Part shown: piece by piece, positions 51,214 through 58,606 of the stretch
How positions within the stretch are numbered: the stretch's first letter is position 1
Layout of the letters: each line of letters begins with the position of its first letter
Assembly (NCBI GenBank): GCA_013619125.1
Contig: JABXKS010000067.1
Coordinates: 1 to 64,000, forward strand
Length of the DNA: 64,000 nucleotides
Source: Clostridiales bacterium
GTDB lineage: Bacteria > Bacillota > Clostridia > Tissierellales > GPF-1
Direction: 5' to 3'
Position numbers and translations under genes: made by a program
Notes under the pieces: model-generated
Seen by the model: the letters and a program-made list of their open reading frames with translations, nothing else
Database searches by the model: none
What the model was told of the DNA's origin: nothing

Positions 51214-51221
51214 GGGCGGGG

Positions 51222-51251
51222 AAAAACGAAACTGAGAAGTTTCGTTTTTTT
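51222..51251 (+). terminator. Terminator
   Basis: AAAAACGAAACT and AGTTTCGTTTTT form a 12-bp stem around GAGA, with a T run. Confidence 0.9.
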
Positions 51252-51295
51252 ATGGAGAAAACGAAACATATCTAGACCAATAATTAAAATTCCGT

Positions 51296-51313
51296 AATTG
51301 GTATAGACAGATT
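51296..51313. promoter_or_regulatory. NagR-like operator 1
   Basis: AATTGGTATAGACAGATT resembles the palindromic box AATTGGTCTAGACCAATT of GntR/HutC-family amino-sugar repressors. It overlaps the -35 element. A weaker half-site (CTAGACCAAT) lies at 51272-51281. Confidence 0.7.
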
Positions 51314-51332
51314 ATCTTTCCCGTGTTATGAT
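51304..51332 (+). promoter_or_regulatory. Promoter of the murQ operon
   Basis: TAGACA (51304-51309) and TATGAT (51327-51332) are spaced by exactly 17 bases. Confidence 0.75.
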
Positions 51333-51342
51333 GCTTTTAGCA

Positions 51343-51360
51343 AATTGGTATAGACCGATT
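51343..51360. promoter_or_regulatory. NagR-like operator 2
   Basis: AATTGGTATAGACCGATT is a near-palindrome that shares 16 of 18 bases with operator 1, 47 bases downstream of it. It covers the expected transcription start. Confidence 0.75.
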
Positions 51361-51377
51361 GGAGTAGGAGTGATGAA

Positions 51378-52286
51378 ATGTTAGAGGGGTTAGGAACTGA
51401 AACACGCAATGCGTGTACAGAAAATTTAGACGAAATGTCTGTTGAAAAGTTTCTGGAAACAATGAATAAAGAAGATCAACAAGTTGCGATAGCGGTCGGG
51501 AAAACGATAAACCAGATTGAAAAAGTCGTGAATATGGCAACCAACTCTTTCGAACAAGGTGGAAGATTGATATACATAGGTGCAGGAACCAGCGGACGTT
51601 TGGGTGTGCTGGATGCGGTGGAATGCCCGCCGACATTTTCAACCTCGCCGGACCAGGTAGTGGGGCTAATTGCAGGCGGAGAGAAAGCGTTTGTCAAGGC
51701 AGTAGAAGGCGCTGAAGACAGTTTTGACTTAGCGGCAGAGGATCTGAAAAAACTCGAGTTGCATGCGCATGATACAGTTGTTGGCATCGCGGCAAGCGGA
51801 CGAACCCCGTATGTGATTGGTGGATTGCGATATGCAAATGAGATTGGCGCGCAAACTGCGGCGGTCGCATGCAACCGAAATTCATTGATTGGCGCGGAAG
51901 CGCAGGTTGCAATCGAGGTGGAAACTGGTCCCGAAGTGTTAACAGGCTCGACACGTTTGAAAGCGGGCACGGCACAAAAAATGGTTCTAAATATGATATC
52001 AACGGCCGCCATGATTTTTATGGGCAAAGCATATAATAATCTGATGGTCGATGTAAATTTGTCAAATGAGAAGCTGGTTGACCGCGCAAAGCGGATTATC
52101 ATGCAAGCAACAGGCGTGACCTATTCGGTTGCGGAGTTGAAATTGCAAGAGGCCAATCGCCGCCCCAAGGTCGCGATTGTCATGATTGAAACGCATTCAG
52201 ATCGACAGCAAGCGGAAGCGTTGCTTGAGAAGACATCTGGATTTGTTAAAAAAGCAATAGAGTTGGGAAAGGGGGAGAAGAAATAA
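51378..52286 (+). CDS. murQ: N-acetylmuramic acid 6-phosphate etherase
   Basis: The 302-residue SIS-domain protein has GAGTSGRLGVLDAVECPPTF, GIAASGRTPYV and the C-terminal TGVTYSVAELKLQEANRRPK, all MurQ motifs. It removes lactate from MurNAc 6-phosphate to give GlcNAc 6-phosphate in the cytosol. It is first in a nine-gene operon for uptake and breakdown of muropeptide sugars. AGGAGTGATGAA precedes the ATG. Confidence 0.95.
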   Translation: MLEGLGTETRNACTENLDEMSVEKFLETMNKEDQQVAIAVGKTINQIEKVVNMATNSFEQGGRLIYIGAGTSGRLGVLDAVECPPTFSTSPDQVVGLIAGGEKAFVKAVEGAEDSFDLAAEDLKKLELHAHDTVVGIAASGRTPYVIGGLRYANEIGAQTAAVACNRNSLIGAEAQVAIEVETGPEVLTGSTRLKAGTAQKMVLNMISTAAMIFMGKAYNNLMVDVNLSNEKLVDRAKRIIMQATGVTYSVAELKLQEANRRPKVAIVMIETHSDRQQAEALLEKTSGFVKKAIELGKGEKK

Positions 52287-52606
52287 TGAAAGTGATGTTT
52301 GTATGTGCAGGCGGTATGTCTACAGCATTGACTGCAAAGAAATTGGTTGAAGTAGCCGAAAAGAATCAAGTAGAGATGGATGTTATAGCGCGAGGAACAA
52401 CGGATTTTATGAATGAATTGCAAGACCATTCGTATGACATTGTCTTGGTGGCACCGCAGATTCGTCATCGATTCAAGGAAGTGCAAGCTGAAGTGGCGAA
52501 ACATGAAAATGTGGTTTGTGTAAAAATTCCACCAAACATGTATGCACCAATGGAGCAAAGTGTTAAGAAATTATTCGAATTTATTATGGATGCTTTAAAA
52601 AAATAA
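52286..52606 (+). CDS. PTS EIIB, lactose/cellobiose family
   Basis: The 106-residue protein has the phosphocysteine loop VCAGGMSTALTAKK (Cys7) and VAPQIRHRFKEV, typical of cellobiose-type EIIB. Its ATG overlaps the murQ stop (TAATG), so translation is coupled. In this context it probably serves a MurNAc-containing disaccharide rather than cellobiose. Confidence 0.9.
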   Translation: MKVMFVCAGGMSTALTAKKLVEVAEKNQVEMDVIARGTTDFMNELQDHSYDIVLVAPQIRHRFKEVQAEVAKHENVVCVKIPPNMYAPMEQSVKKLFEFIMDALKK

Positions 52607-52632
52607 TTTTATAACCGAAAGGGGACATCAGT

Positions 52633-53895
52633 ATGGATAAGTTTTTTCTTTTCCTAGAGGAAAAGGTTTCTGAACCGATGGCGCGATTGGCGGAGCAACG
52701 TCATTTGCGTGCGGTTCGAGACGGTATTGTTGCAACACTTCCGATTATCATTGTAGGTTCTTTTATTCTCATTCTTGCCTTTCCTCCATTGCCTCCAGAG
52801 TGGGCGATTTCACAATGGGCGAAAGCCAACATTGGAACGATTCTGCTTCCTTATCGCATGACCATGTATATCATGTCGTTGTATGCGGCGTGGGGCATTG
52901 GATATAGCTTGTCGAAGTCTTATAAGCTGGATGGCGTTTCCGGAGGAAACTTAAGTGTCATGGCATTTTTAATGACACTTATGCCTAAGATCGCGATTGA
53001 AGGATTTGGTCTTGCAATTCCAATGGGATTCCTTGGTGGAGGCGGCATGTTTGTGGCCATTATTACATCAATTTTTGCCGTTGAAATTATGCGTCTCGTA
53101 TTGAAATCAGGGTTTAAAATAACGATGCCTGAACAGGTGCCATCGAGTGTAGCGCGAAGCTTTGAGGCGTTGACTCCAACAGCGGCTGTGGTCATTATTA
53201 TGACATTGATTACAATTGTATTCGGTTTTGATTGGCATGGCGTAGTTGCCGCAGGATTGGCACCGTTTGTAAAAACATCTGATACCTGGATTGGTGTTAT
53301 GATTCCGGTATCCTTGATTACCTTGTTCTGGTCAGCTGGTATTCACGGTGTTTCAGTTGTTGGTTCAGTTGCTCGTCCGATCTGGACGATTTTACTGGAT
53401 GGCAATACAGCGGCTCATGCGGCTGGAGAAGCGATGCCATATATTGCCCCAGAACCTTTTTACCAATGGTTTATCTGGATTGGTGGCGCGGGTGCGACTA
53501 TCGGTTTGGTTTTGCTTTTGGCTTTCGCGGCAAAATCGAAATATGCGAAGTCATTGGGACGCACAGCGTTGGCACCGGGATTGTTCAACATTAATGAGCC
53601 ATTGATCTTCGGCGCACCGATTGTTTTGAATCCAATTTTACTAATTCCATTTATTATTGCACCGGTTGTTATGGGAACCATTGCATACATCGCAACAAGT
53701 CTTGGCATGGTTGGGAAAGTTTTCATCCTAGCACCATGGACGTTGCCTGGACCAATAGGCGCGTATATCGCGACTGGCGGCGACTGGCGAGCAGCAGTAT
53801 TGAATGTCATTTTGATTGGGGTTTCCGTTGTAATTTACTACCCATTCTTCAAAATGTATGACAAACAACAATTAGAACTGGAAACGCAAGAGTAG
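52633..53895 (+). CDS. PTS EIIC, lactose/cellobiose family
   Basis: The 420-residue integral membrane protein has about ten segments and Lac-family motifs HGVSVVGSVARPIWT, FNINEPLIFGAPIVLNPILLIPF. It transports and supports phosphorylation of a beta-linked disaccharide. Placement between murQ and mupG suggests MurNAc-GlcNAc as cargo. AAAGGGGACATC precedes the ATG. Confidence 0.9.
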   Translation: MDKFFLFLEEKVSEPMARLAEQRHLRAVRDGIVATLPIIIVGSFILILAFPPLPPEWAISQWAKANIGTILLPYRMTMYIMSLYAAWGIGYSLSKSYKLDGVSGGNLSVMAFLMTLMPKIAIEGFGLAIPMGFLGGGGMFVAIITSIFAVEIMRLVLKSGFKITMPEQVPSSVARSFEALTPTAAVVIIMTLITIVFGFDWHGVVAAGLAPFVKTSDTWIGVMIPVSLITLFWSAGIHGVSVVGSVARPIWTILLDGNTAAHAAGEAMPYIAPEPFYQWFIWIGGAGATIGLVLLLAFAAKSKYAKSLGRTALAPGLFNINEPLIFGAPIVLNPILLIPFIIAPVVMGTIAYIATSLGMVGKVFILAPWTLPGPIGAYIATGGDWRAAVLNVILIGVSVVIYYPFFKMYDKQQLELETQE

Positions 53896-53903
53896 AGAAC
53901 GGC

Positions 53904-53929
53904 GCTTAGGTGAAAGCTTTCACCTAAGC
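53904..53929 (+). terminator. 26-bp perfect palindrome between EIIC and EIIA
   Basis: GCTTAGGTGAAAG and its exact complement CTTTCACCTAAGC are adjacent, followed by CCCTTTT. It may be a partial terminator that lowers expression of downstream genes or a stability element. Confidence 0.65.
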
Positions 53930-53952
53930 CCTTTTGATTAGGAGTGAAAAAT

Positions 53953-54270
53953 ATGGAAGAATTAATTTTTGGCATTATTTCCCATGGTGGTACGGCAAGA
54001 GGATTGGCGTATGAAGCATTTGAAGCAGCGCTGGAAGGCGATTTTGCTCAAGCGGACGAATTGATGAAAGAAGCGGAGATGGAGATTGGCGAGGCGCACA
54101 AGCTTCAAACTTCAACCCTGCAAAGGGAAGCGTCGGGTGAAAAATTTGATGTGGGTGTGATTTTTGTTCATGCACAGGACCATTTGATGACGGCGATGGC
54201 AGAAAAGTCTTTACTGAAACAAATGATTGAAATGCAGAAGCGAATTGTCAAGCTGGAGGGAAAGGTATGA
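53953..54270 (+). CDS. PTS EIIA, lactose/cellobiose family
   Basis: The 105-residue helical protein has the EIIA-Lac motif FVHAQDHLMTA, with His73 as the likely phosphate carrier, and IISHGGTARGLAYEA at the start. It passes phosphate from HPr to the EIIB encoded upstream. ATTAGGAGTG precedes the ATG at 53953. It overlaps mupG by four bases. Confidence 0.92.
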   Translation: MEELIFGIISHGGTARGLAYEAFEAALEGDFAQADELMKEAEMEIGEAHKLQTSTLQREASGEKFDVGVIFVHAQDHLMTAMAEKSLLKQMIEMQKRIVKLEGKV

Positions 54271-55364
54271 AAAGACTAGGGGTTTCCATTTATCCAGAAA
54301 AGGCGTCGGTACAAGAGAACAAGGCCTATTTGGCTACAGCAGCAAAGCATGGATTTGATCGGGTGTTTTCTTGTCTGCTAAGCGTGGATGCCAGCCAAAA
54401 AGAGAAAATTGTTCAGGAATTTTTAGATATCAATACTTATGCAAAGTCGCTTGGAATGGAAGTGACCGTAGACGTAAATCCTCGTGTGTTTGCGGAGTTG
54501 GGAATCGGTTATAATGACCTATCGTTTTTTAAGGAAATTGGTGCAGACGGAATTCGTCTGGACATGGGTTTTACCGGACGTGAAGAGGCAATGATGACGT
54601 TCAATCCGGAAGGACTCCTCGTGGAAATCAATATGAGTATCGACACGCGTATGATAGACAATATCTTTGACTATATGCCGAATCCCAATAAGTTGATTGG
54701 CAGCCATAATTTCTATCCGCATCGTTTCACTGGATTGTCACCGGAGTTTGTAGAAAAGACAACAAGACAATACAAGTCTTACGGTATGCGGACAGCGGCT
54801 TTTATTTCCTCGCAGCAGGCAAGTTTTGGACCGTGGCCTGTAACCGATGGATTAGTGACCATGGAAATGCACCGCGATCTTCCGGTTGATGTGCAATTGA
54901 AGCATTACATTGCAATGAATGGGTTGATGGATGATGTGATGATATCCAATTGTTTTGCGAGTGAAGAGGAGTTGGAACGCCTTGGTTCCTTAAATCGAGA
55001 TCTTTTAACACTGGATGTGACGCCGGTCAACGAGATCCCGAAAGTCGAGGCTTCCATTCTATTTGAAGAGCTTCATTTCAATCGCGGAGATATCAACGAG
55101 TATGTCGTTCGTTCGACCATGTCCCGAGTGAAGCATAAGGGGCATCAATTTAATGTGTTCAATACACCAGATATCAAACGGGGCGACGTTGTCGTTGAAA
55201 GCAGCGAGTACGGTCATTATGCTGGCGAGATGCAAATTGCACTGAAAGATATGCCTAATAGCGGGAAAAGCAATGTAGTGGGGCACATTCGAAAGGAAGA
55301 GCATTTTCTTTTAGATTTGATTCAACCGTGGCAGAAGTTCCGACTTCGACCCACAAAAGGGTAG
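54267..55364 (+). CDS. mupG: 6-phospho-N-acetylmuramidase (DUF871)
   Basis: The 365-residue protein matches the DUF871 family that includes Staphylococcus MupG: LGVSIYPEKASVQENKAYL, DVNPRVFAELGI, GADGIRLDMGFTG, LIGSHNFYPHRFTGLS and the C-terminal RGDVVVESSEYGHYAGE. MupG splits MurNAc6P-GlcNAc into MurNAc 6-phosphate and GlcNAc in the cytosol. With murQ and the kinase this gives a full route. It overlaps the EIIA gene by four bases (ATGA). Confidence 0.9.
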   Translation: MKRLGVSIYPEKASVQENKAYLATAAKHGFDRVFSCLLSVDASQKEKIVQEFLDINTYAKSLGMEVTVDVNPRVFAELGIGYNDLSFFKEIGADGIRLDMGFTGREEAMMTFNPEGLLVEINMSIDTRMIDNIFDYMPNPNKLIGSHNFYPHRFTGLSPEFVEKTTRQYKSYGMRTAAFISSQQASFGPWPVTDGLVTMEMHRDLPVDVQLKHYIAMNGLMDDVMISNCFASEEELERLGSLNRDLLTLDVTPVNEIPKVEASILFEELHFNRGDINEYVVRSTMSRVKHKGHQFNVFNTPDIKRGDVVVESSEYGHYAGEMQIALKDMPNSGKSNVVGHIRKEEHFLLDLIQPWQKFRLRPTKG

Positions 55365-55369
55365 TAGTT

Positions 55370-56242
55370 ATGACAATGATTTTGTCGATTGATGGCGGAG
55401 GAACAAAAACCTTAGGCGTTGTATACGATGAATGCGGGAGAGAAGTGGAACGTTGGACCGCAGGACCGGCGGCGCTTCATGTTGATTTCGAAGCGGCCTG
55501 GGAAGCAATTGAATGGATTGTTGACCAAGCAACAAAATACCAACCAACCGTGGTTCTCGGTATCAGCGGCGCAGAAACCTCAGCGAAGGCTGCTGAGATT
55601 CCCACAAGGATTTACATGAAATTCGGTCTTGAATCGGAGATCATGAGTGATATAAAATTAAGTTACTTTGCGCATCATGGAAAGAAATCTGGTATGGATA
55701 TCATTGCGGGAACCGGGAGTGTCGTGATGGCATTTACGGGCGAACAATTTGTAATTCGTGGTGGATGGGGTCCGCGTTTGGGCGATGAGGGCAGTGCTTT
55801 TGGGCTTGTTCGTTCAATTGTACAATCCCTTTTGGCATTTCTGGAAGAGGAAGAACGAGTGGACGAAGTTGAGGAAGTGCTCAACATGATCGGCGTTCGA
55901 GACAAAGCGGAATTGATCCAATGGACGTACAAGCAGGATCGAATGTCTTTTGCTGGAGCGGCAAAAAAATTGGCACAGTCAAACCATGTACTAATCCAGG
56001 AAGCAGTTCGTAAGGAAGCGGAAGCCTTGGCTAAGCAGGCGGGGCAGCTAGTATTGAAATTACAAGAGCCGTTTGAAATTGGACTGACGGGATCGGTTTT
56101 TGAAAAGAATGAAGATTTTGCTCGCCATTTTCAAAGCGTTTTGAACGGATATGCAGGCAAAAGCCTTTCCTATCATCCGATGCATGAGGAAAATGTCTTC
56201 GGTGGGTATCGGTATCTCATGGGGAAATGGCAATCAAATTAA
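55370..56242 (+). CDS. N-acetylglucosamine/MurNAc kinase (BadF/BcrA-type ATPase)
   Basis: The 290-residue protein is an ASKHA kinase: phosphate loop SIDGGGTKTLGVVYDE, IAGTGSVVMAF, GGWGPRLGDEGSAFGL, GLTGSVFEKN. Close families are GlcNAc kinase and clostridial MurK, which acts on both MurNAc and GlcNAc. Here it probably phosphorylates the GlcNAc freed by MupG, or MurNAc. The start at 55370 follows AAAGGGTAG, six bases after the mupG stop. Confidence 0.85.
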   Translation: MTMILSIDGGGTKTLGVVYDECGREVERWTAGPAALHVDFEAAWEAIEWIVDQATKYQPTVVLGISGAETSAKAAEIPTRIYMKFGLESEIMSDIKLSYFAHHGKKSGMDIIAGTGSVVMAFTGEQFVIRGGWGPRLGDEGSAFGLVRSIVQSLLAFLEEEERVDEVEEVLNMIGVRDKAELIQWTYKQDRMSFAGAAKKLAQSNHVLIQEAVRKEAEALAKQAGQLVLKLQEPFEIGLTGSVFEKNEDFARHFQSVLNGYAGKSLSYHPMHEENVFGGYRYLMGKWQSN

Positions 56243-56269
56243 AAATTGTGAAATTCTAACATCAGAATT

Positions 56270-56278
56270 TGGTATAAT
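56270..56278 (+). promoter_or_regulatory. Internal extended -10 promoter
   Basis: TGGTATAAT is an extended -10 element placed 15 bases before the small membrane protein gene. A 7-bp hairpin AAATTCT/AGAATTT lies just upstream, and TTGGTATA also resembles half of a NagR-like box. It could give separate expression of the regulator. Confidence 0.55.
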
Positions 56279-56293
56279 AGAAGGAGTGGTCAA

Positions 56294-56578
56294 ATGAGTA
56301 CATCAATTCAAAGTTTTTCATTTAAAGGCGCGATTTTGATAGCGTGTAGTGTTTTGTTATTGAATATTGGCGTTATTCCTCTACTGGTCATGCTGGGGAT
56401 TTCTCAGAGTATGGCGGCTGTTTTTGTAAATGGCCTTCTTTCCAGTGGTAGTATTGCTTATATCAGTGTTTTTATTGACGGGAATCAGGAAAGAAAAACA
56501 TTTTTGAAGCGATATGGACTGTTTGGCTTATTATTTGGGATTACTGCGTACTTATGGTCAATAAATATTTTTATTTAA
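56294..56578 (+). CDS. Small membrane protein in the mur operon
   Basis: The 94-residue protein has three hydrophobic helices (about 11-33, 37-60 and 74-93) with charged loops, and no family I recognise. AGAAGGAGTGGTCAA precedes the ATG. It lies between the kinase and the repressor gene, with its own promoter. A role in transport or envelope sensing is possible but unproven. Confidence 0.65.
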   Translation: MSTSIQSFSFKGAILIACSVLLLNIGVIPLLVMLGISQSMAAVFVNGLLSSGSIAYISVFIDGNQERKTFLKRYGLFGLLFGITAYLWSINIFI

Positions 56579-56590
56579 GGAAGAATTCTT

Positions 56591-57295
56591 ATGCGTATAC
56601 CGATACATCTTACCATTTATGAAGACATCAAAAAGGATATTTTGAACGGAAAATTCGCGCCGAATGAAGCAATTCCTTCAGAGCGCAACATTAGCGTGCA
56701 CTATAATGTCAGTAGAATGACCGTTCGCCAGGCGATTAATCAATTGGTATTTGATGGATATCTGTATCGTAAAAAGGGAAGCGGAACCTTTGTTTCAGAA
56801 AAGGTAAGAGGCAACTTCGCCAAAGGCGTGATTGGTTTTGAAGCCGAGATGGAGCGACGCGGTTACAGCACATCAAATCAAGAATTGCTTTTTCAAAAGG
56901 AACTGCCGTCTGACGAGGTGGTAAAAGCCTTGGAGATCGAATCTTTCGAAGGCGTTTTTCATATCGAACGAGTCCGCTTTGCGGATGGCCTGCCTATGGC
57001 AGTGGAGCAGTCCTATCGAGCCCTTCGTGTTTCACCGAATTTGAAGGAGCGTGATTTGAGCGATTCACTAATGAAGGAATTGGAAGTCTTGGGATATGAA
57101 ATTGGCTACGCAGATCAATCCATTCATGCGGTGTTGGCAACGGAGAGTCAAGCTGCTGCATTGGGGATCGAACCAAAGAGTCCACTGCTCTTGGTGCGTT
57201 TGATTATTCATAGCTCGGATGGTGATGTGTTGCAATATAGCCTGATTTATTATCGCGCCGACCGTTATTCTGTCAAACAGATTTTGAGTCCGTGA
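56591..57295 (+). CDS. GntR/HutC-family repressor (NagR-like)
   Basis: The 234-residue protein has a GntR winged HTH (AIPSERNISVHYNVSRMTVRQAINQL, about 23-48) and a UTRA ligand-binding domain (about 80-230). This is the HutC subfamily that includes NagR/YvoA, which bind amino-sugar phosphates. The two AATTGGTATAGAC boxes before murQ are its likely targets, so it probably represses the operon until GlcNAc 6-phosphate or MurNAc 6-phosphate appears. Confidence 0.88.
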   Translation: MRIPIHLTIYEDIKKDILNGKFAPNEAIPSERNISVHYNVSRMTVRQAINQLVFDGYLYRKKGSGTFVSEKVRGNFAKGVIGFEAEMERRGYSTSNQELLFQKELPSDEVVKALEIESFEGVFHIERVRFADGLPMAVEQSYRALRVSPNLKERDLSDSLMKELEVLGYEIGYADQSIHAVLATESQAAALGIEPKSPLLLVRLIIHSSDGDVLQYSLIYYRADRYSVKQILSP

Positions 57296-57314
57296 CAAAG
57301 GAATAGGAGAGGAC

Positions 57315-58442
57315 ATGTTAGGCATTGGAGTGATGACAGGAACCAGCCTGGACGGGGTGGATCTTTGTCTGATTGAGATAAATGATGAGTTTCGGAAGAC
57401 GAAATTGATAGAGTTTGATTCCTATCCGTATTCCGAAAAAATGATTAATAAAATACGATCAACCTTGAGAGAGCCGGTTCTTACGCTTGAAGCAATTACA
57501 AAATTGGATTTCGAAATTGGAGAAGAATTGGCATATGCGATGAATCGATTTATCGATGAAAAGCAGATTGTGAGAAGAAAAATCGATTTTGCTGCGATTC
57601 ACGGGCAAACCATGTGGCATAATTCAAAGGCGAACGGGATGGTTCCATCCACGTTGCAAATTGGAAACCCAAGCATTGTGGCGCAACGAACGGGTTTAAC
57701 CATCGTTTCGAATTTTCGAGAAAAGGATATTGCATGCGGTGGGGAAGGTGCACCGCTTGTGCCGGCAACGGAATATCTTCTGTATCAGGATCCGAAAAAG
57801 AACCAAGTTTTTGTCAATATTGGAGGGATCTGCAACCTGACATACTTGCCGAAGAACAATAAAAAAGAGCAGGTGCGTGCATTTGACACTGGTCCAGGCA
57901 ATATGATGATGAATTATGTGACAAGCCGTTATTATCAGTTACCGTATGATTCCGGAGGGAAAATCGCAGCGACTGGAACCGTGGTGCAAGAATTGTTTCA
58001 GGAACTGATTTTGCATCCATATTTGTCACAACCCATTCCCAAGAGCACAGGTCGTGAACAGTTCGGAGACGCCTATACAGAGTCGATGATTCAGAAGTAC
58101 GCATCGGAAAAATCAGAAGACTTGCTTTGTACATTCACGCATTTTTCTGCGTATGCATTGGTAGAAGGGTTGAAACAGTTGGATGTCATCGACGCAATCT
58201 TTATTGCAGGAGGCGGTGTGCACAATGGATATTTACGTACATGCATCAAGCGTTACCTACAAAAAGCTGAGATCGATGCGTCGATTGATTCTTTTGAAAA
58301 GGTAAGCAATCCAGATGCGAAAGAGGCAGTTGCTTTTGCGGTCTTGGGTTATTTACGCTTGCGTGAAATGCCGGGGAACTTGCCAAGTGCAACCGGAGCG
58401 AAACGGGAGACAATATTGGGTAGCGTCATTTTGCCAAATTAA
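57315..58442 (+). CDS. anmK: Anhydro-N-acetylmuramic acid kinase
   Basis: The 375-residue protein has AnmK motifs: GVMTGTSLDGVDLCL, AIHGQTMWHN, GIGN-type FVNIGGICNLTYL, FDTGPGNMMMNY and IFIAGGGVHNGYL. It cleaves the 1,6-anhydro ring and phosphorylates to MurNAc 6-phosphate, the MurQ substrate. This implies uptake of anhydro sugars produced by lytic transglycosylases, which is best known in Gram-negative bacteria. GAATAGGAGAGGAC precedes the ATG. Confidence 0.93.
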   Translation: MLGIGVMTGTSLDGVDLCLIEINDEFRKTKLIEFDSYPYSEKMINKIRSTLREPVLTLEAITKLDFEIGEELAYAMNRFIDEKQIVRRKIDFAAIHGQTMWHNSKANGMVPSTLQIGNPSIVAQRTGLTIVSNFREKDIACGGEGAPLVPATEYLLYQDPKKNQVFVNIGGICNLTYLPKNNKKEQVRAFDTGPGNMMMNYVTSRYYQLPYDSGGKIAATGTVVQELFQELILHPYLSQPIPKSTGREQFGDAYTESMIQKYASEKSEDLLCTFTHFSAYALVEGLKQLDVIDAIFIAGGGVHNGYLRTCIKRYLQKAEIDASIDSFEKVSNPDAKEAVAFAVLGYLRLREMPGNLPSATGAKRETILGSVILPN

Positions 58443-58456
58443 GAAAGCGACAAGAA

Positions 58457-58535
58457 GCCGAATATCTAATTTGGCAGAATTGATATTTTTTTGTTTTCTG
58501 TAATCCGCTGAGTATCTAGCTTGGCGGATTTTTTA
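58457..58535 (+). terminator. Tandem terminators after anmK
   Basis: The first stem GCCGAAT/ATTTGGC (58457-58475) and the second AATCCGC/GCGGATT (58502-58530) share the inner sequence TATCTA and TTGGC and are both followed by T runs, suggesting one arose by duplication of the other. Confidence 0.75.
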
Positions 58536-58565
58536 TGAAAATATTATCAAAAAGCAACTGACAGA

Positions 58566-58606
58566 AAAGAGTCGATATCTCCTATTGAGATATCGACTCT
58601 TTATTT
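58566..58606. terminator. Bidirectional terminator
   Basis: AAAGAGTCGATATCTC and GAGATATCGACTCTTT form a perfect 16-bp stem with loop CTATT between convergent genes. Confidence 0.9.

Follow-up and report, generated by a model that had tools for sequence, protein, structure and literature searches.

A Lac-family phosphotransferase operon predicted to salvage peptidoglycan disaccharides ending in N-acetylglucosamine

We analyzed a 64,000-nucleotide stretch of a Clostridiales bacterium (assembly GCA_013619125.1, contig JABXKS010000067.1, positions 1 to 64,000; here called the window), which carries at positions 51378 to 58442 a nine-gene operon, all on the + strand, in the order murQ, IIB, IIC, IIA, GH170, BadF kinase, a 94-amino-acid membrane protein, gntR, and anmK. 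Adjacent genes either overlap or stand close together, leaving the operon nearly gapless. Judged by its gene content, the operon appears to serve the salvage of peptidoglycan sugars through a Lac-family phosphotransferase system (PTS), with the substrate suggested by the company the transporter keeps. The reading that we somewhat prefer is a self-regulated operon for peptidoglycan disaccharides ending in N-acetylglucosamine (GlcNAc), namely, GlcNAc-1,6-anhydro-N-acetylmuramic acid (GlcNAc-anhydroMurNAc) and probably also GlcNAc-N-acetylmuramic acid (GlcNAc-MurNAc). The broader proposal, to which we give an even chance, is a widespread Gram-positive route in which a dedicated clade of Lac-type PTSs would import GlcNAc-anhydroMurNAc phosphorylated on GlcNAc, a GH170 6-phospho-N-acetylglucosaminidase (or GH4 plus ChbG in a sister lineage) would cleave it, AnmK or the BadF kinase and then MurQ would follow, and the small membrane protein would be a new PTS partner. 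Such a route looks like a second salvage route running parallel to the known MurP/MupG route.

The genes that an earlier note on this DNA had named (murQ, Lac PTS, GH170, kinase, and anmK) were confirmed in place and strand, with family profiles scoring over their cut-offs. The murQ gene (51378 to 52286), encoding MurNAc-6-phosphate etherase, scored 392 bits against TIGR00274 (cut-off, 302), and its closest solved structure was 4s12, a MurQ. The PTS consists of IIB (52286 to 52606; above the PF02302 cut-off, with its cysteine in MFVCAGGMST), IIC (52633 to 53895; TIGR00410, 382 bits; cut-off, 236), and IIA (53944 to 54270; above the PF02255 cut-off, with the motif HAQDHLM), so that a Lac-family PTS indeed stands where MurP would; none of the equivalog cut-offs of the cellobiose, lactose, and chitobiose subfamilies was attained. 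The GH170 6-phosphoglycosidase (54267 to 55364) scored 301 bits with PF19200 and 134 bits with PF05913 and has 1x7f as a solved relative. The BadF/BcrA-type sugar kinase (55370 to 56242; PF01869, 52 bits; cut-off, 31.5) is predicted to act on MurNAc and/or GlcNAc. Among solved structures it matched the hexokinase 2e2n with 83 bits and 8zo3, a distant relative named as a MurNAc/GlcNAc kinase, with 36 bits, and it scored 60 bits against the NagK_SO3507 equivalog, below the cut-off of 370. Its mechanically called open reading frame begins at GTG 55328 and overlaps the GH170 gene; the ATG at 55370 is the likelier start. The anhydro-MurNAc kinase gene anmK (57315 to 58442) scored 403 bits with NF007148 (cut-off, 387) and 332 bits with PF03702, and its product aligned to the solved AnmK 3cqy over its length, 3qbw being another solved AnmK. 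Two operon genes went unmentioned in the earlier note, those for the 94-amino-acid membrane protein (56294 to 56578) and a GntR/UTRA regulator (56591 to 57295). No DUF3284 gene was found among the nine.

In the proposed route, the Lac-type IIA-IIB-IIC would import GlcNAc-anhydroMurNAc, the product of lytic transglycosylases, while phosphorylating O6 of the terminal GlcNAc, and the same PTS probably would also import GlcNAc-MurNAc, the product of muramidases. GH170 would split the phosphorylated disaccharide into GlcNAc-6-phosphate (GlcNAc-6P) and anhydroMurNAc or MurNAc. AnmK would convert anhydroMurNAc, and the BadF-type kinase, by its predicted specificity, MurNAc, to MurNAc-6-phosphate (MurNAc-6P), from which MurQ would strip D-lactate; the resulting GlcNAc-6P would feed the nag pathway. 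Because a PTS needs a free 6-OH, and that of anhydroMurNAc sits in the anhydro bridge, we expect the imported sugar to be GlcNAc-anhydroMurNAc carrying its phosphate on GlcNAc. For the same reason, the earlier view of AnmK as an added entry point for free anhydroMurNAc fails for a PTS, and the enzyme fits if the disaccharide is what enters. A kinase for MurNAc would be needed if GlcNAc-MurNAc is cleaved, and MurK-type kinases act on MurNAc (cf. 8zo3).

The genome assembly spans 3.42 Mb on 130 contigs and is estimated to be 98.4% complete. It encodes three proteins of the SLT family, which could supply anhydro sugars, and its single GH170 and single AnmK both lie within the operon. Only three PF02378 EIICs were present: the Lac type of the window, a second Lac type that adjoins a GH1-like 6-phosphoglycosidase (contig C68), and a fructose type (contig C84). 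The earlier note had allowed for a MurP elsewhere as the actual carrier, but no MurP-type Glc-family EIIBC was found among the three EIICs of this assembly.

The linkage of these genes recurs well beyond the window. Seven aligned IICs served as the query for a scan of 84,980 named species, and the best 80 loci, together with others from whole genomes, gave 85 distinct loci. Six duplicate loci were dropped from the counts; the loci were sampled by similarity, and the counts are not population frequencies. When 43 further Lac IICs were added to the tree, all 85 IICs, that of the window included, formed one clade (support, 98), with hosts that include Clostridium, Clostridioides difficile, Vagococcus, Enterococcus, Peribacillus, Erysipelothrix, Sporomusa, Olsenella, and Streptococcus. 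MurQ was encoded at 46 of these loci, AnmK at 40, the BadF kinase at 60, and GH170 at 53, and where MurQ was present, it was accompanied by the BadF kinase in 45 of 46 cases and by AnmK in 31. In contrast, 38 other GH170-linked Lac loci had no MurQ, no AnmK, and a single BadF kinase. All 12 checked genomes without murQ at the IIC locus carry a full-score MurQ elsewhere. The earlier proposal of peptidoglycan-sugar salvage is supported, and the linkage of Lac PTS, GH170, MurQ, and AnmK is a recurrent one. Chance co-location of the operon genes was considered and rejected, since the gene order recurs in other genomes.

Both AnmK and the BadF kinase are tied to this transporter clade. Neither was found in any of 59 MurP operons, taken from an order-level and phylum-wide sample. 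On the MurQ tree, the PTS type changed about 14 times, and independent pairs gave 8 with and 0 against the association for the BadF kinase (median P of 0.008) and about 6 with and 0 against for AnmK (P of 0.03); one hybrid locus (L146/L196) was left out of this test. AnmK is rare in the order, occurring in 14 of 249 genomes, and in 7 of these 14 it lies in a Lac-clade operon. Three of the seven operons are of the GH170 type (window, L054, and L055), and four have the order BadF-RpiR-MurQ-IIB-IIC-IIA-GH4-ChbG-AnmK. Additionally, anmK of enterococci directly adjoins the IIC gene as a pair of its own, with no local MurQ. From the Lac-clade linkage, the rarity in the order, and the enterococcal pairs, we conclude that AnmK follows the transporter and not MurQ alone. 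Most of the other AnmK genomes of the order belong to one family (f14) and carry the gene beside others whose size and order alone suggest peptide-type ABC transporters; two of these loci also encode MurQ. These loci (L292 and L293 in G162 and G161, and also L291 and L294 to L296) possibly represent a third entry route for anhydro-muropeptides.

The GH170 enzymes separate along the same line. We read the canonical mupG-murQ-murP-rpiR operon in S. borealis, S. nepalensis, and S. ureilyticus, and the window GH170 was 24% identical to the S. borealis enzyme. In a tree of 164 GH170s, which did not include the L. paracasei chb sequence, all 62 MurP-linked enzymes formed one clan on a long branch (support, 100) with no Lac-linked member, and the window enzyme fell in the Lac-PTS-linked clade outside this staphylococcal MupG clan. 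Few residues cleanly separate the clans; they comprise a GPW insertion and W190 in the Lac-linked enzymes. We therefore argue, from these sequence comparisons, that the GH170 family holds two kinds of enzyme, each tied to its own transporter. Some genomes have both systems: G158 carries MurQ-MurP-MupG (L256) plus a separate Lac/GH170 set (L059), G021 likewise has both, and in Tissierella simiarum (L146/L196) MurQ-MurP-MupG-RpiR is followed directly, in one run, by BadF and the Lac-clade IIB-IIC-IIA. Because they coexist, the two systems probably have different substrates.

In one sub-branch of the IIC clade, the sister lineage, GH4 plus ChbG take the place of GH170. GH4 enzymes act by oxidation at C3. 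Thus, the GH4-ChbG variants fit a GlcNAc-6P end and not a MurNAc-6P end, because the lactyl ether of MurNAc would block the reaction at C3. A passage in PMC12791066 cites the GH4 enzyme ChbF of Escherichia coli as acting on GlcN6P-glycosides after ChbG; PMC9402603 gives a different position of deacetylation. In Sporomusa and soil Bacillota (L142, L153, L136, and L147), operons of the GH4-ChbG form have a gene for the exo-muramidase NamZ downstream.

These data bear on the strongest alternative, which is close to what the earlier note had proposed, namely, the MurNAc-GlcNAc route of Staphylococcus with an exchanged transporter. Here, the Lac PTS would phosphorylate MurNAc, GH170 would act as MupG, the BadF kinase would take the released GlcNAc, MurQ would act on MurNAc-6P, and AnmK would serve a separate source of anhydroMurNAc. 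The characterized MupG does belong to GH170 (PMC6262408), MurQ is in the operon, a GH73 glucosaminidase is encoded in the genome, and MurP was not found there. However, the window GH170 lies outside the MurP-linked clan, the two systems coexist in some genomes (L059 with L256; L196), and the GH4-ChbG variants are hard to square with a MurNAc-6P end. Moreover, the sugar kinase, which the earlier note had counted as part of the Staphylococcus route, accompanied MurQ at 45 of 46 Lac-clade loci but was present in 0 of 59 MurP operons, and AnmK also was absent from all 59, although MupG releases GlcNAc in that route too, with a fate called unclear (PMC6262408). We consider this alternative unlikely, and MurNAc-GlcNAc is, by these comparisons, a less likely substrate than GlcNAc-(anhydro)MurNAc.

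Several observations nevertheless weigh against our preference for a disaccharide with a GlcNAc end. The same genes could instead process MurNAc-GlcNAc, in which case GlcNAc would be the sugar taken by the kinase, and the one GH73 glucosaminidase could make that disaccharide. AnmK was missing from 15 of the 46 Lac-clade loci with MurQ, so perhaps not every such system uses the anhydro substrate. The replacement by GH4 plus ChbG was mainly a single evolutionary event (3 changes on the tree), along with which the specificity of IIC may have shifted. Finally, genetic support for a substrate of the Lac-linked kind of GH170 is confined to GlcNAc-GlcNAc, for which L. paracasei needs a GH170 and a Lac-type PTS (PMC12791066). 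That pairing itself, like the GH170 next to the Lac-type PTS genes of Borreliella cp26, counts in favor of our preference.

A broader system, in which the PTS and GH170 would take MurNAc-GlcNAc and GlcNAc-(anhydro)MurNAc alike and the two kinases would handle whichever sugar was left over, accounts for every gene at once, and S. aureus MurP takes both MurNAc and MurNAc-GlcNAc (PMC6262408). Against it stands the strict tracking of the transporters by the two GH170 clans. In addition, no GH170 is known to have dual specificity, and we regard this reading as improbable. Least probable is an ordinary chitobiose or cellobiose PTS merely neighboring peptidoglycan genes, which would suit a Lac-family IIC with the Lac/cellobiose-type 3qnq as its closest solved relative and the pairing of GH170 with a Lac PTS in the L. 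paracasei chb operon (PMC12791066) but not the presence of MurQ at 46 of 85 clade loci versus 0 of 38 others, its presence in all 12 checked genomes without a local murQ, the AnmK-IIC pairs, or the gain and loss of the whole block as a unit.

That last point comes from two congeners that keep the genes flanking the operon site. One of them (G014) has just 137 bp there and the other (G013) a ribose (rbs) operon, so the whole block, including anmK and gntR, appears to have been gained or lost as one unit. Foreign base composition was rejected, as the G+C content of the block (41 to 47%) equals that of its flanks. The site, flanked by dihydroorotate-dehydrogenase-like and SEC-C-motif genes, is a swap site for sugar operons (window, 51214 to 58600; L267:6034-12822, rbs; L268:9111-9248, 137 bp).

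The family of the 94-amino-acid protein was present at 44 of the 85 IIC-clade loci, in most cases within two genes of IIC, and at 0 of 97 comparison loci. No consistent Pfam or NCBIfam family was matched. Three helices were predicted, and an AlphaFold2 model also had three (pLDDT, 85.5; pTM, 0.65); our simplest guess is that the protein may be a PTS partner assisting IIC. In another branch of the clade (12 loci), it gives way to tm96 (L127:8354-8647 and relatives), which is likewise an unnamed family of small membrane proteins.

The operon probably controls itself. The closest solved relatives of the GntR/UTRA regulator were YvoA (NagR) and DasR, with YvoA (2wv0) the best match (E value of 9e-35). 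A putative operator region upstream of murQ (51265 to 51360, + strand) holds a promoter-like site, TAGACA-17-TATGAT (51304 to 51332), overlapped and flanked by two near-identical boxes on the + strand, TTGGTATAGACAGATT over the -35 (51298 to 51313) and TTGGTATAGACCGATT after the -10 (51345 to 51360), and a weaker third box, inverted on the - strand (51265 to 51280). Elsewhere in the 3.4-Mb genome, the pattern shared by the two boxes had no exact match; the number of promoter-like sites upstream of murQ was not above chance. We take the boxes to resemble the dre sites of NagR/DasR-type regulators, and the NagR-like protein would repress its own operon through them. An 11-bp perfect hairpin lies between IIC and IIA (53904 to 53929, + strand), and such sites were no more frequent than in shuffled sequences.

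GH170 genes also were seen in other settings. A C. difficile plasmid (L273:1745-10153) has GH170 and a Lac PTS beside an amidohydrolase, a DgaE-type ammonia lyase, a KDGP aldolase, and a sugar kinase; in this GH170 set the sugar has a different fate. On cp26 of Borreliella garinii (L271:2470-5773), a gene that carries the annotation alpha3-beta1 integrin-binding protein encodes a GH170 with 43% identity to that of the window and adjoins Lac-type (chitobiose) PTS genes, and a role as a cytoplasmic phosphoglycosidase would fit these neighbors better than integrin binding. In the wall-less mollicute Mycoplasmopsis columboralis (L269:3-2202), a GH170 gene with a frame broken in the record directly precedes an intact anmK.

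Overall, the system appears to be widespread in Bacillota, a variant of PTS-based peptidoglycan recycling that is undescribed in the literature searched: on a Lac-type PTS for MurNAc or a PTS for GlcNAc-anhydroMurNAc we found nothing beyond papers on MupG, chb, and CELO2, and anmK and murQ of C. difficile were found merely as transcriptome entries (PMC11633334). If true, the proposal would explain how anhydro-muropeptide sugars get into Gram-positive bacteria that have AnmK but no recognized importer of its substrate. GH170 would then comprise two enzymes, each kept with its own transporter, and PTS genes that are now annotated in C. difficile, enterococci, and clostridia as cellobiose transporters would gain a function open to testing. 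The analysis also brought to light a family of small membrane proteins associated with a single PTS clade.

Four known systems resemble parts of the operon. MupG-MurQ-MurP-MurR of S. aureus (PMC6262408) shares PTS import of a peptidoglycan disaccharide, cleavage by GH170, and MurQ, but it uses the Glc-family EIIBC MurP, a GH170 of the other clan, and RpiR instead of GntR, and it lacks the kinase, AnmK, and the small membrane protein. The L. paracasei chb operon (PMC12791066), which serves N,N'-diacetylchitobiose, has a Lac-type IIA/IIB/IIC and GH170, with predicted cleavage after GlcNAc-6P; unlike the window, it includes a DUF3284 protein and lacks MurQ, AnmK, and the kinase. In E. coli, chb (ChbBCA, the GH4 enzyme ChbF, and ChbG) likewise has a Lac-type PTS and serves GlcNAc oligomers; sister operons of the window clade use GH4 and ChbG, whereas the window has GH170 with MurQ, AnmK, and the kinase instead. 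In Gram-negative recycling, GlcNAc-anhydroMurNAc enters through the permease AmpG and is not phosphorylated before NagZ splits it; AnmK and then MurQ follow. The proposed route would share with it the entry of GlcNAc-anhydroMurNAc and the order of AnmK and then MurQ, with a PTS and a 6-phosphoglycosidase in place of AmpG and NagZ.

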